Below, piece by piece: positions 1,648 to 25,815 of a stretch of DNA of 30,880 nucleotides. Both the position numbers and the translations under genes were made by a program. The stretch lies in the IMG/VR virus record IMGVR_UViG_3300047476_000119, positions 1 to 30,880 of that record, one strand, 5' to 3'. Source of the DNA: a virus. Numbering within the stretch: position 1 is the stretch's first letter; the number at the start of each line of letters is the position of its first letter. The notes below the pieces were generated by a model. The model saw only the letters and a program-made list of their open reading frames with translations. It was not told where the DNA came from and ran no database searches.

Positions 1648-1745
1648 ACCTAGAAAAAGACTTTACCCTCTCAGAAGAAGAACTAGAAGTAATCAGAGAG
1701 GCTATTAGACGAACAATGGAACAATATTTAGCGAGATTGCAATGA
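1644..1745 (+). CDS. Small acidic helical protein
   Basis: 33 residues, MNLEKDFTLSEEELEVIREA... ending EQYLARLQ. The ATG at 1644 overlaps the previous stop and the TGA at 1743-1745 overlaps the next ATG at 1742, so it sits exactly in the coupled chain. It is predicted to be a single amphipathic helix. The support is the overlap pattern rather than homology. Function unknown. Confidence 0.6.
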   Translation: MNLEKDFTLSEEELEVIREAIRRTMEQYLARLQ

Positions 1746-2215
1746 TTGATATTAAAGACATTTACGAATATAGGGATGGCAGCCTTTTTTGGAAAGTTGC
1801 TAACTCTAATGTCGTAAAAATTGGTGATAGAGCTGGATACATCACGAAGCATGGATACAGAAAAGTCATGATGAATGGCAGGCAACTCTATGAGCATAGA
1901 GTTATTTTCTTTATGCACAATGGTTATATGCCAAAAGAAATAGACCACATTGACGGAAATAAGTTAAACAACAAGATAGAGAATCTAAGAGAAGTTACTC
2001 ATTCTCAAAATGCCATGAATGTTAAAAAATTTGTTACAAATACATCTGGAGTTAAAGGTGTTTGCTGGGACAAAGCTAGAAAAAAATGGATGGTTCGTAT
2101 TTCTGTAAATAATAAATGTATTAATATTGGTCGTTATGATGATTTAGAGCTGGCAGAGCTTGTAGCGATAGAAGCTAGAGATAAATACCATAATCAATAT
2201 GCAAAATATGATTAG
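1742..2215 (+). CDS. HNH endonuclease with AP2 DNA-binding domain
   Basis: 157 residues. Residues about 50-95 form an HNH_3 nuclease core (YEHRVIFFMHNG, PKEIDHIDGNKLNN, NLREVTHSQN), with His52, Asp68-His69 and the Asn cluster as metal and catalytic residues. Residues about 102-150 (SGVKGVCWDKARKKW...IGRYDDLELA) match the AP2-type DNA-binding domain often fused to phage HNH enzymes. The family cuts DNA at specific sites and spreads its own gene. It is coupled by ATGA to the preceding gene and overlaps the next by 17 bases, so it sits neatly in the operon rather than interrupting a gene. Confidence 0.9.
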   Translation: MIDIKDIYEYRDGSLFWKVANSNVVKIGDRAGYITKHGYRKVMMNGRQLYEHRVIFFMHNGYMPKEIDHIDGNKLNNKIENLREVTHSQNAMNVKKFVTNTSGVKGVCWDKARKKWMVRISVNNKCINIGRYDDLELAELVAIEARDKYHNQYAKYD

Positions 2216-2434: not shown

Positions 2435-3439
2435 TTACACAGTCCAAATCTTTCCTCGGAAAGTAACTTCACCTTTATCTTCATTCCAGACTTGCACTAA
2501 CTCAGGTGGTAGCAACTTGCCATCTACAAAAGTTAGAACTGCGAATCCGCTTCTCCAGTCTTTAGGGTTGTCCTCGGTATAGTCAGAGAACTGGTCACCC
2601 ATTGGGTTAGCTAGGCAGCCTGTCTGCACACCATAGCGAGTTCCCTTGTAGTCTGTGAATGGCTCTACCTTTAGTTGGTGAGTATGACCTGTAACAATAG
2701 AAGTGCCAGCAAAGGTTGTGTTGTTTGACCCTGCGTAGCGACCACCTTTCCATCTGTGTTTAATCACAGTATCCTCATTAATCCAGAATGACCAACAAGG
2801 TTGCCATAGTGGAAAATGGTCTTTAAGGGTAAATCCTTGGACTCCTTCATATTGCGGAGCTTGAGCTGCTAGGAAGTTCTCGAATCGAGCATCATGGTTA
2901 CCTAGAGTCCAGATAAGATTAGACTTGTGGACTGAGGCTTCTTCAATAGCAGATAGATGGTCTTGAACTGCCTTGAGTTCTTCGATTACAGAAGGCTTTG
3001 AGTCCCAGCCAATTCTAGGATGTCGGCTGATAGATGCACCATCAAAAGCATCACCATTGTTAATAATGACTTCTGGCTTGTGGGCTTTAATGAATGTCAG
3101 CAATGCTCTAAAGGCTGTGCTGTAATCATTAGGATAGAAGTGAGCATCAGAAAAGACTACTACTTTGCCATTCTCAATAACTGTGCCTCTGCGGACAGAG
3201 TGCCTAGTTTCTTCTAGCTTCTCTGCTAGTTTTTGCTTTGCGACATTTCTATCAAAAGTAATGGTTTGCTTTAAAGGATTATCAGTTACTAAAGAAATAT
3301 TGTATTTAGACTCTAGATAATTTCTTCGCCTCATAATGGCACGAACATCAACACCAAGAGCTTTGCTCATTCCTGATGGTGACTGGACTTGTTTCCATAA
3401 CTCAATAAACTCTTGGTCTGTGCAAACTGCTTTTGTCAT
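2435..3439 (-). CDS. Calcineurin-like metallophosphoesterase with N-terminal HTH-like region
   Basis: 334 residues. The phosphoesterase metal site is complete: SDAH (Asp98, His100), NGD (Asp130), GNHD (Asn181, His182), His228 and GHTH (His252, His254). The family hydrolyses phosphoester bonds using two metal ions; the phage substrate is unknown and could be DNA, nucleotides or a phosphoprotein. Residues 1-50, with SGMSKALGVDVRAIMRRRN, look like a small helix-turn-helix, suggesting nucleic-acid contact. It starts one base inside the stop of the upstream SprT-like gene (TAATG), so the pair is co-translated. Confidence 0.9.
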   Translation of the reverse strand: MTKAVCTDQEFIELWKQVQSPSGMSKALGVDVRAIMRRRNYLESKYNISLVTDNPLKQTITFDRNVAKQKLAEKLEETRHSVRRGTVIENGKVVVFSDAHFYPNDYSTAFRALLTFIKAHKPEVIINNGDAFDGASISRHPRIGWDSKPSVIEELKAVQDHLSAIEEASVHKSNLIWTLGNHDARFENFLAAQAPQYEGVQGFTLKDHFPLWQPCWSFWINEDTVIKHRWKGGRYAGSNNTTFAGTSIVTGHTHQLKVEPFTDYKGTRYGVQTGCLANPMGDQFSDYTEDNPKDWRSGFAVLTFVDGKLLPPELVQVWNEDKGEVTFRGKIWTV

Positions 3440-3800: not shown

Positions 3801-4247
3801 TTATGACAAGAACAAGACTCTCTCAGCTTCTCTCCGCCTTTTGAGTCCATTACTGACTTTACCGCTAGCCATATTCCACCTTAATAACTGGTCAGCAGCC
3901 TCATCCCACTTCTCTTGATTAATCTTTTGTCTAAGAGTGCTTGCCCTTAAATTACCAGCACCAAGATTGTAAGCAAAGCTAATAATAGCACCCAATTTAT
4001 TTGGGTAATTAACCAAAACAGGGCAAAGGCGCAATACAGAAGGAATGAAGATAGTAGATAGCGAATGGTCAAATAAATCATTACCAGTATCAATATCAAT
4101 TGCTTTGTCATTTAGGGTTACCTTAGTGCCATCTTTGTAAAATGTAGACCCATAACCAATGGTAGGAACTGAGGCACTACATAAGTAAGGTTTAGAGCGA
4201 AAACCCTCAAAATGCTTTATGAGAGTTATTGCTTCTTTAGAAATCAT
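3801..4247 (-). CDS. GH24 endolysin (lysozyme), E-C-T catalytic triad
   Basis: 148 residues, the usual length for a one-domain phage lysozyme (muramidase) that cuts the glycan backbone of peptidoglycan. Glu14 (IKHFEGFR), then eight residues, Cys23, then five residues, Thr29 (TIGYGST) matches the GH24 spacing E-8-D/C-5-T, with Cys in place of the more common Asp. The C-terminal region NLRASTLRQKIN...LRWNMASG...GLKRRREAE is typical of the family. There is no signal peptide or SAR segment, so export should depend on a holin. It overlaps the upstream holin-like gene as ATGA. Confidence 0.93.
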   Translation of the reverse strand: MISKEAITLIKHFEGFRSKPYLCSASVPTIGYGSTFYKDGTKVTLNDKAIDIDTGNDLFDHSLSTIFIPSVLRLCPVLVNYPNKLGAIISFAYNLGAGNLRASTLRQKINQEKWDEAADQLLRWNMASGKVSNGLKRRREAERVLFLS

Positions 4248-12479: not shown

Positions 12480-13217
12480 TTATCCTAATAATGAATATAC
12501 ATTCGGAGTAGATACTCTTTGTTGCAATAAAGATAGTGTTGGTGAATAGTCCACCATGCCTCTTGGAGCTACCTGTGGCATCTGCATACCTTGAGGAGTT
12601 TGAGCTTGTGGTTGTTGTCCTAGCAATGTCTGACCTAATCTTAATGCTCTTTGTGCATCACCTAAACTAAGAGTTGCAGGAGCAGTTACACCTGCCATTC
12701 CTGCTGTTCCTGCTGGCAAAGCTGATGCTCCACCTAAGTAGCCTAAACCACTTGTTGCACCAGTTCCTACACCACCCATTCCAGCACCTAATGCTGTCCC
12801 TGCTAATGAGCCTGTGCTAATACCTGTGCCACCAGCAGCACCTGCTGTAGTTCCTGCACTTAATCCAAATCCTGTAGTTCCAGAACCTACTGCACCTGTT
12901 GTTGCACCACCAAGAGCTTGTGAACCTAAAAAGTCTGTAGCTCCACCTGCAATAGCAGCTTCTGTAGCAGTCGCAGCACTAGCACCAGCAGCAGCAGCCT
13001 CGGTAGCAGTTGCTCCACTAGCCAAAGCACTAGCCTCTGCAGCATTACCTGCAGCAATTGCTTCAGCACCAAGATAAGCACCGCCAGCCAAAGCAGCTAC
13101 ACCAATCCACCCCATTGGGATTTCCTCATTGACCTTATCGTCAATCCATGAGCCAGCATCCTTAACAGGGTCTACTACTGCATCTACTAAGTTGTCTATT
13201 GGACTACCGCCACTCAT
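12480..13217 (-). CDS. Ala/Gly-rich internal virion protein
   Basis: 245 residues. The short N-terminus (MSGGSPIDNLVDAVVDPVKD) is followed by about 150 residues that are nearly all Ala, Gly, Thr and Ser, with periodic ATEAAAAG and GTATG-like units, then a Gln/Pro-rich end. It may be membrane-interacting or part of the ejection apparatus. The start ATG at 13217 overlaps the stop of the upstream reading frame as ATGA. The low complexity makes homology uninformative. Function is inferred from position only. Confidence 0.65.
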   Translation of the reverse strand: MSGGSPIDNLVDAVVDPVKDAGSWIDDKVNEEIPMGWIGVAALAGGAYLGAEAIAAGNAAEASALASGATATEAAAAGASAATATEAAIAGGATDFLGSQALGGATTGAVGSGTTGFGLSAGTTAGAAGGTGISTGSLAGTALGAGMGGVGTGATSGLGYLGGASALPAGTAGMAGVTAPATLSLGDAQRALRLGQTLLGQQPQAQTPQGMQMPQVAPRGMVDYSPTLSLLQQRVSTPNVYSLLG

Positions 13218-13618
13218 AGCTTATTCTCCACAATTACATACTTTTCTGTAAATCCTAATCTTCTCCAAAGTCTAGCAATTGATTCTCTTGCTGCACCTTG
13301 AACCTTAGTAGCTCCTTGAACTTTTAGTAGTTCTGTGAACTCCTTGTAAATCTGTTTGTCGCTTATAAACTTACCGCCAATAGCTGTAATAAAAGCAACT
13401 CTGTCATTCGGATAGTTTTGGAAAGATACTGTGCAACATCCTTTAATCTGTCCAAAATCATCTAAAGCAACTATTAACTGCCATTGTCCATTTGTTAAAT
13501 AGACTTTAACTTGGTCTAGTGAGTAGTCTCCATCAGCATACTGTAAAGCATCCTCAATAAATCTACTGACTAGATTCCAAGTTTGTGAAACGAAGTTTTT
13601 ATTAACTAGTTTTAGAAT
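13214..13618 (-). CDS. GNAT-like phage protein with no standard start codon
   Basis: An open frame runs from an in-frame stop within the upstream gene to TGA 13214-13216, with no ATG, GTG or TTG at all. From the ATT at 13618 it gives 134 residues, beginning ILKLVNKNFVSQTWNLV. The end, with GGKFISDKQIYKEF and AARESIARLWRRLGF, resembles GNAT-fold proteins of phage head/core clusters (inference). The ATT is preceded by AGGTGG six bases away. The frame is -1 relative to the upstream gene, so frameshift readthrough is the alternative. The ATGA overlap with the downstream gene supports real translation. Confidence 0.7.
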   Translation of the reverse strand: MLKLVNKNFVSQTWNLVSRFIEDALQYADGDYSLDQVKVYLTNGQWQLIVALDDFGQIKGCCTVSFQNYPNDRVAFITAIGGKFISDKQIYKEFTELLKVQGATKVQGAARESIARLWRRLGFTEKYVIVENKL

Positions 13619-14529
13619 AACAATCCACCTAATACACCGCCTAAACCAGCTCCGATAACACCTTGAGAAACTGGGTTCATCAAGCCACTACCGCCCAAGA
13701 ACTGACCACCTAAGTATCCTAAACCAGCACCTGCTAAACCGCCCATCAAAGGATTTCTTGGCATAGTGGTACTTTGTGTCTGTGTGCCAAAGTTACCCAT
13801 AGGTGAACCATAAACTGAAGATAAATAGCCAGATAACTGTTGGTATGGTAACTGCTGACCAAAGTTGAAACGAGCCATCTGTTCTTGTAATGGTTGAGCT
13901 GCAATGGCTTCTCTCGCTGCACCAACTTGTGCCAATTGCTGAGAAGGCAAGAACTGCTGTGAGTAGATGCTTGGAGCTGCTGCTGCTAATTGAGCCTGTG
14001 CCAATTGAGCTTGTTGCTGTAAGCCTCGCTCTTGCTGATACTGTTGTCCTGCGATATTAGAGGTAATATCACCTAGACCTCTTGTATATGCTTCTGTAGC
14101 TTGACCAAGAGCATTTTGCATAGCACCAGAACCATAGCGACCAGAGCGAGAATAAAGACTAGCAATTTGTGGCAATACCTGATTAGAGAACTGTTGCTCC
14201 AATGGTCTTGTAGCAGCTTGCATCATCTGAGCTTGGTAAGGGTTTCCACCTAGGAATGAACCAGCAGCAGTCGCACCAACTCCACCTAAAGACTGTTGGT
14301 AGGCTTGTTGAGCCTGTTGCAATACAGGACTTGCCTGACTTGCCAAAGCCTCTTGTTGAGCCAAAGCCTGTTCAGTCTGAGCAGAAGGGCTAACAAATGT
14401 CTGACCTTCAAAGAACTTAGGTTGCTGACCTGTCAAGAATAGACTTTGCGCTCTTTCAAGACCTTGGGTAAGGTAAGGAAGTAAAGCTGGGTCTATATTT
14501 GATGTAGATGAAGTTGTCTGAACTGCCAT
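13612..14529 (-). CDS. Gln/Ala-rich virion protein
   Basis: 305 residues. The Gln-rich helical region at about 50-230 (QALAQQEALASQASPVLQQ, LQQQAQLAQAQLAAAA) is followed by a Gly/Leu-rich hydrophobic end (GLAGAGLGYLGGQFLGG, IGAGLGGVLGGLLF) that could insert in a membrane. Such proteins occur among the internal or ejection proteins of short-tailed phages. The ribosome binding site is GAGGAAA before ATG at 14529. The -1 frame is open across its 3' end and leads into the next reading frame. Confidence 0.65.
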   Translation of the reverse strand: MAVQTTSSTSNIDPALLPYLTQGLERAQSLFLTGQQPKFFEGQTFVSPSAQTEQALAQQEALASQASPVLQQAQQAYQQSLGGVGATAAGSFLGGNPYQAQMMQAATRPLEQQFSNQVLPQIASLYSRSGRYGSGAMQNALGQATEAYTRGLGDITSNIAGQQYQQERGLQQQAQLAQAQLAAAAPSIYSQQFLPSQQLAQVGAAREAIAAQPLQEQMARFNFGQQLPYQQLSGYLSSVYGSPMGNFGTQTQSTTMPRNPLMGGLAGAGLGYLGGQFLGGSGLMNPVSQGVIGAGLGGVLGGLLF

Positions 14530-24559: not shown

Positions 24560-25815
24560 ACCACCCATTTAGTGTTAATCTGTAGTGGCTTAGACCACGA
24601 GCTACCTGTGTTATCTAGACCTATTGCCAAGTACCTAAAAGCATCTGAACCATGAGAAGCCCAGTCATGCAAAGGTTTCTCATAGTAAACATTTCGCTTT
24701 TCGTCAAACTCTCTCCTATAGTTTCTCAGACAATCAACTCCTTGTCTAACTCTAGGCATATTGAACCAACATTTCGGTAACAATCGTCTGACTGATTGAA
24801 TACCATCATCTACCGACAATCTAGGTAAAACATCTACATTCAGTCCTGCACCTTGTAGCATCTCTAACCTAGATTTTCCTGTACCTAATTCTCTGACTGA
24901 CACATCATGCGGAAGTTTATGGCTTGCATTAGTCCAGCCATTATCCTTAATCCAGTTCACATACCAGTCTAATCCTTGACCATGATTTTCTACATAGTCC
25001 ATGATTCTTACCTCTTGACCTGTTACTTGAGCGACCCAAATAGCTGTGGAGTCACCCATTCCCAAGTCCCAAGCAGTAAATGTCTGGCATAGGTCATCTC
25101 TTGTAACCTCTACCATTCTGCCTTTTTCTTCCAAGTCATTCATCAGTTTGCCATAGTAACTGCCCTCTACAGCAGCATGGAAGCTACACTCGAACTCTTG
25201 CTGATACTTGTCCTCTCCCATCTCAGCCCTAGCTGCCTTCAGCTCTGACTCTGGAACTAGCTTTGTCTCGCTTGCCTTGAACTCTAGCAGTCCCCACTCA
25301 GGAGTATCTTCTGCTCGGTCTCTTAGGTCTTTAAAGTGATTCTGTCCCTTCGGAGTTCCAATGAACAAACACCAGCCTAATCTGTCGGCTAGTGCAGGTC
25401 TTAGAATTTCTGTCCAAATCTTAGGGTTCTGGTCACCAATCTCATCTAGGATGACACCATCAAAATACTGCCCTCGGAGTGAATCAGGGTTATCAGAGCC
25501 ATATAACTGGATTCTTCTACCCATGAAGTCCACTCTCAACTCAGAGATATTCTCTGTACCGCCTAAAGGTCTTGCATACTTACAAAGGTAATCCCAAGCT
25601 ACTCGCTTTGCCTGTCCATAAGTAGGAGCAATATAAGCATATCTAGGGTTTTCCTTAGTATTTAGAACAGCATCCTTAATCAGATGGTTAATCGCACTAA
25701 CTGTCTTACCCATTCTTCGGTGAGCTACCACTACCCCAAATCTATGGTTATCCATCAGCTCGTGAATTGCAAGCTGTGGTTCTCTAGGTTTGTAAGGAAT
25801 GATTATTTCTGCCAA
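24556..25815 (-). CDS. terL: Terminase large subunit
   Basis: 419 residues. The ATPase has Walker A AHRRMGKT (31-38), Walker B VILDE (121-125) and coupling motif FIGTP (151-155). The nuclease is RNase H-like, with Asp250 (FTAWDLGMGDST), Asp304 (LPHDV) and Asp391 (HGSDAFRY) as likely metal ligands. It drives DNA into the procapsid and cuts it. The early R-R-M-G-K-T Walker A is the usual deviant form in phage terminases. It overlaps the small terminase gene by 13 bases. Confidence 0.95.
   Translation of the reverse strand: MAEIIIPYKPREPQLAIHELMDNHRFGVVVAHRRMGKTVSAINHLIKDAVLNTKENPRYAYIAPTYGQAKRVAWDYLCKYARPLGGTENISELRVDFMGRRIQLYGSDNPDSLRGQYFDGVILDEIGDQNPKIWTEILRPALADRLGWCLFIGTPKGQNHFKDLRDRAEDTPEWGLLEFKASETKLVPESELKAARAEMGEDKYQQEFECSFHAAVEGSYYGKLMNDLEEKGRMVEVTRDDLCQTFTAWDLGMGDSTAIWVAQVTGQEVRIMDYVENHGQGLDWYVNWIKDNGWTNASHKLPHDVSVRELGTGKSRLEMLQGAGLNVDVLPRLSVDDGIQSVRRLLPKCWFNMPRVRQGVDCLRNYRREFDEKRNVYYEKPLHDWASHGSDAFRYLAIGLDNTGSSWSKPLQINTKWVV

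Follow-up and report, generated by a model that had tools for sequence, protein, structure and literature searches.

The question raised by this locus is whether a frame that offers no standard initiation codon is expressed as a protein, and where its translation begins. The window, i.e., the whole stretch of DNA that was analyzed, is an entire IMG/VR virus record (IMGVR_UViG_3300047476_000119) of 30,880 bases. It carries genes with matches to portal, major head and terminase families, and the phage is of a freshwater type and probably short-tailed. On the minus strand, 134 sense codons followed by TGA extend from 13618 to 13214, and the TGA forms an ATGA overlap (13217–13214) with the ATG of the next gene, which encodes 245 residues rich in Ala and Gly (12480–13217, minus strand) and had no match in the family search. 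Upstream lies a Gln/Gly-rich gene of 305 codons (13612–14529, minus strand), which matches PHROG 4287 (DNA ejection protein) with an E-value of 2.2e-17 and ends at 13612 with TTG TTA TTC TAA in another frame. The frame in question is open for 69 bases 5′ of an ATT at 13616–13618, up to an in-frame TAG, and from this TAG onward no ATG, GTG or TTG occurs in it until a GTG at codon 130. The late block on this strand is almost gapless, and without the ORF a hole of about 395 bases would remain. The description of a protein-like frame of 134 codons with an ATGA end and no standard start, given in the first-pass annotation, was borne out by reading the frame and by its conserved homologues. The ORF, which is located between virion protein genes, is very probably an authentic gene of the late block of a tailed phage.

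Relatives were searched in IMG/VR with the window protein, resulting in 37 loci, and with a profile, for which the best 80 of 168 relatives were read; these belong partly to the same contigs. An ATT is present at the same codon in 12 other contigs (L001–L009, L011, L017 and L035), which share 90–100% protein identity with the window over the part that they hold. The ATT contigs originate from different metagenomes and, including the window, represent 8 distinct start regions. Beyond these, dozens of more distant homologues were found. Judged by this conservation, the frame is more than a chance ORF.

Five further relatives with 89–90% protein identity to the window carry a standard start at the codon that is ATT in the window. 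In L010 and L014/15 it is an ATG in a TAATG overlap with the upstream stop, and in L012/13 a TTG directly after the TAA. Every one of the distant relatives (about 42–64% identical) has an ATG, GTG or TTG close to this codon, and in most of them it forms an ATGA overlap with the end of the upstream gene; for 65 loci among the best 80 of 168 in the profile scan (L055–L119), such a codon is located within a few codons of the ATT position. A direct search with the window protein yielded a single annotated phage, Methylophilales phage Venkman, whose homologue (gp47) also has an ATG start. In the scan of genome contigs no relatives were detected, and therefore no link to a host or prophage can be drawn. 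The alignment of homologues, which had been proposed as a check, places the starts of the standard-start relatives at the ATT codon and shows the position of the ATT to be conserved.

Within codons −8 to 20, codon 1 (ATT) is the only near-cognate start common to all 8 start regions, and the next common one is codon 21, which is located within the first helix of the predicted structure. No standard start is available 5′ of the conserved coding region, and the ATT is conserved where homologues start. Initiation at another non-standard codon, e.g., an ATT or GTT that precedes codon 1 by one or two codons, could be considered, as at least one further ATT is present just upstream in each ATT lineage, two codons earlier in the window, L003–L005, L011 and L035 and one codon earlier in L006, L008 and L011. 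However, none of these upstream codons is common to all lineages and the standard-start relatives align with codon 1, so that such a start is very unlikely. The conservation of the ATT itself has to be read with care, since it overlaps the upstream gene's Leu-Phe codons and is constrained by them for other reasons. About 35–55% of the Leu codons of this gene are TTA, and the invariant A is therefore weak evidence for an ATT start. It also counts against initiation at AUU that the ATT lineages are not independent of each other.

With high likelihood, a free protein of 134 residues would be translated from the AUU at 13618, as indicated by the comparison of start regions. Ribosomes would arrive from the upstream gene, whose TAA stop (13612–13614, minus strand) begins four bases 3′ of the first base of the AUU and may serve as the site of reinitiation. 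In most lineages, they would be helped by a Shine-Dalgarno-like AGGTGG within the upstream gene (13625–13630, minus strand). This motif had previously been noted six bases before the ATT and was found there, at 13630–13625. Its predicted duplex with the anti-SD sequence has an energy of −7.4 kcal/mol, which is among the best 4–5% of random positions and comparable to the values at the stronger gene starts of the window. The corresponding value is −10.8 kcal/mol for L006 and only −3.8 kcal/mol for L003, which has no good SD sequence. The initiator tRNA would read the AUU with a mismatch at the third position, the first residue would presumably be Met, and expression of the gene may be low. In nearly all relatives, the start lies directly beside the upstream stop or overlaps with it, which makes translational coupling the likely route to the ATT start, and coupling or termination-reinitiation at this stop may contribute to initiation. 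It is conceivable, though rather unlikely, that selection maintains the AUU as a weak start reached by reinitiation behind the stop, by which the product would be held at a low fixed ratio to the ejection protein or made dependent on IF3; many starts of this kind may be hidden in phage virion operons.

Besides the ATT start, the first-pass annotation had considered a −1 extension of the Gln-rich virion protein, i.e., a programmed frameshift close to where the upstream gene ends, which would yield a fusion of the 305 + 134 residue type and would make a free protein unnecessary. The open frame upstream of the ATT in the window is in line with this, as are T_TTA tetramers (GGT TTA or GCT TTA) in most ATT lineages and the ability of SD-like sequences to stimulate frameshifting (PMC4066793). 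However, the −1 frame of L003 is closed by a TAA three codons 5′ of the ATT, and the remaining TTG TTA TTC TAA contains no Z_ZZN motif, a class of motif that is required for −1 frameshifting (PMC4066793). The T_TTA sites have no conserved place among the lineages, no X_XXZ_ZZN heptamer is present at the junctions, and the predicted RNA folding of the junction is no better than that of shuffled sequences (z +0.64). Furthermore, the gene of L012/13 follows the TAA in frame 0, the frame of the upstream gene, with its own TTG start, so that it is out of reach of a −1 shift, and separate starts are present in L055, L059 and Venkman. In summary, neither a slippery motif at a conserved place nor a conserved −1 relation with an open overlap was found. 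Due to the closed frame of L003, the frame relation in L012/13 and the negative results for motifs and folding, frameshifting was rejected and the fusion is regarded as very improbable. The ATT start is the mechanism retained, in agreement with its conserved codon, the homologous starts and selection on the gene.

As a further alternative to translation from the AUU, the gene could be a pseudogene that lost its ATG through a change at the junction and is decaying in the ATT lineages. ATG and ATT junctions indeed differ by 6 bases in the stretch from the upstream stop to codon 5, so that an indel either removed or introduced the normal start. Nevertheless, dN/dS is 0.057 at a dS of 1.07 between the window and L006, both with ATT, and about 0.06–0.2 for the other ATT pairs, so that low values hold up to a dS of about 1.1. 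Most pairs of an ATT and an ATG member show about 0.04–0.12; the exception is L011–L014 with 0.34, which is based on only six synonymous changes. None of the ATT members contains an internal stop or frameshift, and the ATGA junction with the next gene is kept in them. Judged from these rates, purifying selection keeps the ATT gene intact in several related phages. The low dN/dS values and the intact frames argue for translation of the gene in lineages that lack a standard start, and the pseudogene explanation, rejected on dN/dS, is extremely improbable. The probability of an assembly or sequencing error that hides an ATG in the window is close to nil: homologues with an ATG at this codon exist (L010, L014 and L015), which the first-pass annotation would have taken as a sign of such an error, but twelve contigs from other IMG metagenomes have this ATT in frame as well, with independent differences in the bases around it, and the ATT is thus a real variant.

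The history of the start region was traced with a tree of the codons past it, on which the ATT state requires three changes. From the difference of 6 bases it follows that the start changed together with an indel of two codons. The AGGTGG motif is located 12 bases from the start in the ATG relatives, and due to the indel it lies closer to the start in the ATT lineages. Between L011 and L014 (around 2935–3060), the gene bodies are nearly identical (dS 0.08) and the start junctions are ATT and ATG, respectively; the C-termini of the upstream genes differ too. Taken at face value, these junctions suggest that recombination moves the start region.

The product was modeled with AlphaFold2 from 53 sequences, with a mean pLDDT of 92.4. 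The predicted secondary structure consists of strands at residues 2–5, 46–52, 58–68, 73–82 and 105–108 and helices at residues 7–25, 34–42, 88–100 and 112–120, and the model shows the GNAT order β1-α1-α2-β2-β3-β4-α3-β5-α4. The first strand directly follows the ATT, and a later start would therefore remove part of the fold; a start at codon 21 would delete this strand and most of helix 1. Pfam scans of the window protein and its relatives gave nothing above the cut-off. Weak matches were obtained to Acetyltransf_1 (one member only, E-value 0.17) and to a glyphosate N-acetyltransferase in the PDB (E-value 0.92), and a profile match to a ‘putative acyltransferase’ of Roseobacter phage CRP-738 reached an hhalign probability of 96.9. 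The GNAT assignment thus looks to be one of topology together with a weak sequence link. By direct reading, the acyl-CoA loop motif Q/R-x-x-G-x-G/A between β4 and α3 is absent, the loop being AIGGKFISDK, and enzymatic activity is therefore doubtful. In podoviruses (cobaviruses), a GNAT protein beside the internal virion proteins has been proposed as the counterpart of T7 gp13 (PMC6775973). The ATT gene is similar to it in its place by ejection or internal virion genes and in the order of strands and helices. Its product has no direct sequence match to T7 gp13, only the weak link to CRP-738, and membership in the T7 gp13 family (PF11090) was rejected (no PF11090 match; hhalign probability of 0.4 against T7 gp13). 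The product is probably GNAT-like, similar in kind to the proteins encoded beside internal virion proteins in podoviruses.

Several other features were observed elsewhere in the window. On the plus strand, five small tandem ORFs are located at 124–1647, several of them with ATGA overlaps. Four of the five end with KKASER or KKASEK and the fifth with KKAKKK, and their sequences suggest small genes that arose by duplication and share a C-terminus. A very hydrophobic ORF of 54 codons on the minus strand (3947–4111), which lies out of frame within the endolysin gene (4247–3801), may be either a lysis gene nested in it or a product of chance. ORFs that look HNH-endonuclease-like are found at 24568–23999 (minus strand), 6153–5578 (minus strand) and 1742–2215 (plus strand), with terminase and portal on either side of the first, the second within the tail region and the third within the plus-strand block; they are possible homing-type genes.

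AUU starts are established for few genes. The infC gene of E. coli, encoding IF3, starts with AUU (PMC5472188) and is an example of bacterial AUU initiation as proposed here. In infC the AUU serves autoregulation by IF3, a loop that cannot be claimed for the phage gene, which differs from infC in being probably coupled to an upstream stop. In bbe22/pncA of Borrelia burgdorferi, an AUU start was missed by annotation, and structure and homology showed that the N-terminus is needed (PMC13398362); that start was proven biochemically, whereas the one described here is derived by comparison and prediction. Natural switches from AUG to AUU are very rare (1 of 61,358 ancestral AUG starts; PMC5622118), which counts against the AUU reading. 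Reinitiation in E. coli can be studied with non-canonical starts and matching mutant initiator tRNAs, and it is limited by IF3 (PMC2268962). As in coupled E. coli operons, where the start overlaps or adjoins the stop, the phage relatives with standard starts show TAATG, TTGA or ATGA overlaps. Coupled starts in nature are normally standard codons, whereas for the ATT gene reinitiation at an AUU beside the stop is what we infer. Among the phage genes in the literature searched, none was found for which an AUU start has been proven, although one may already have been published.

The best explanation is that the ATT gene is a new conserved member of the small known class of genes with AUU starts. 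Gene callers restricted to ATG, GTG and TTG, as PHANOTATE is by default (PMC6853651), would miss it. The putative AUU start is common to several phage lineages, and in near relatives this codon is ATG or TTG. Together, these AUU, ATG and TTG variants are a natural series in which the choice of start codon can be tested in combination with stop-coupled reinitiation.
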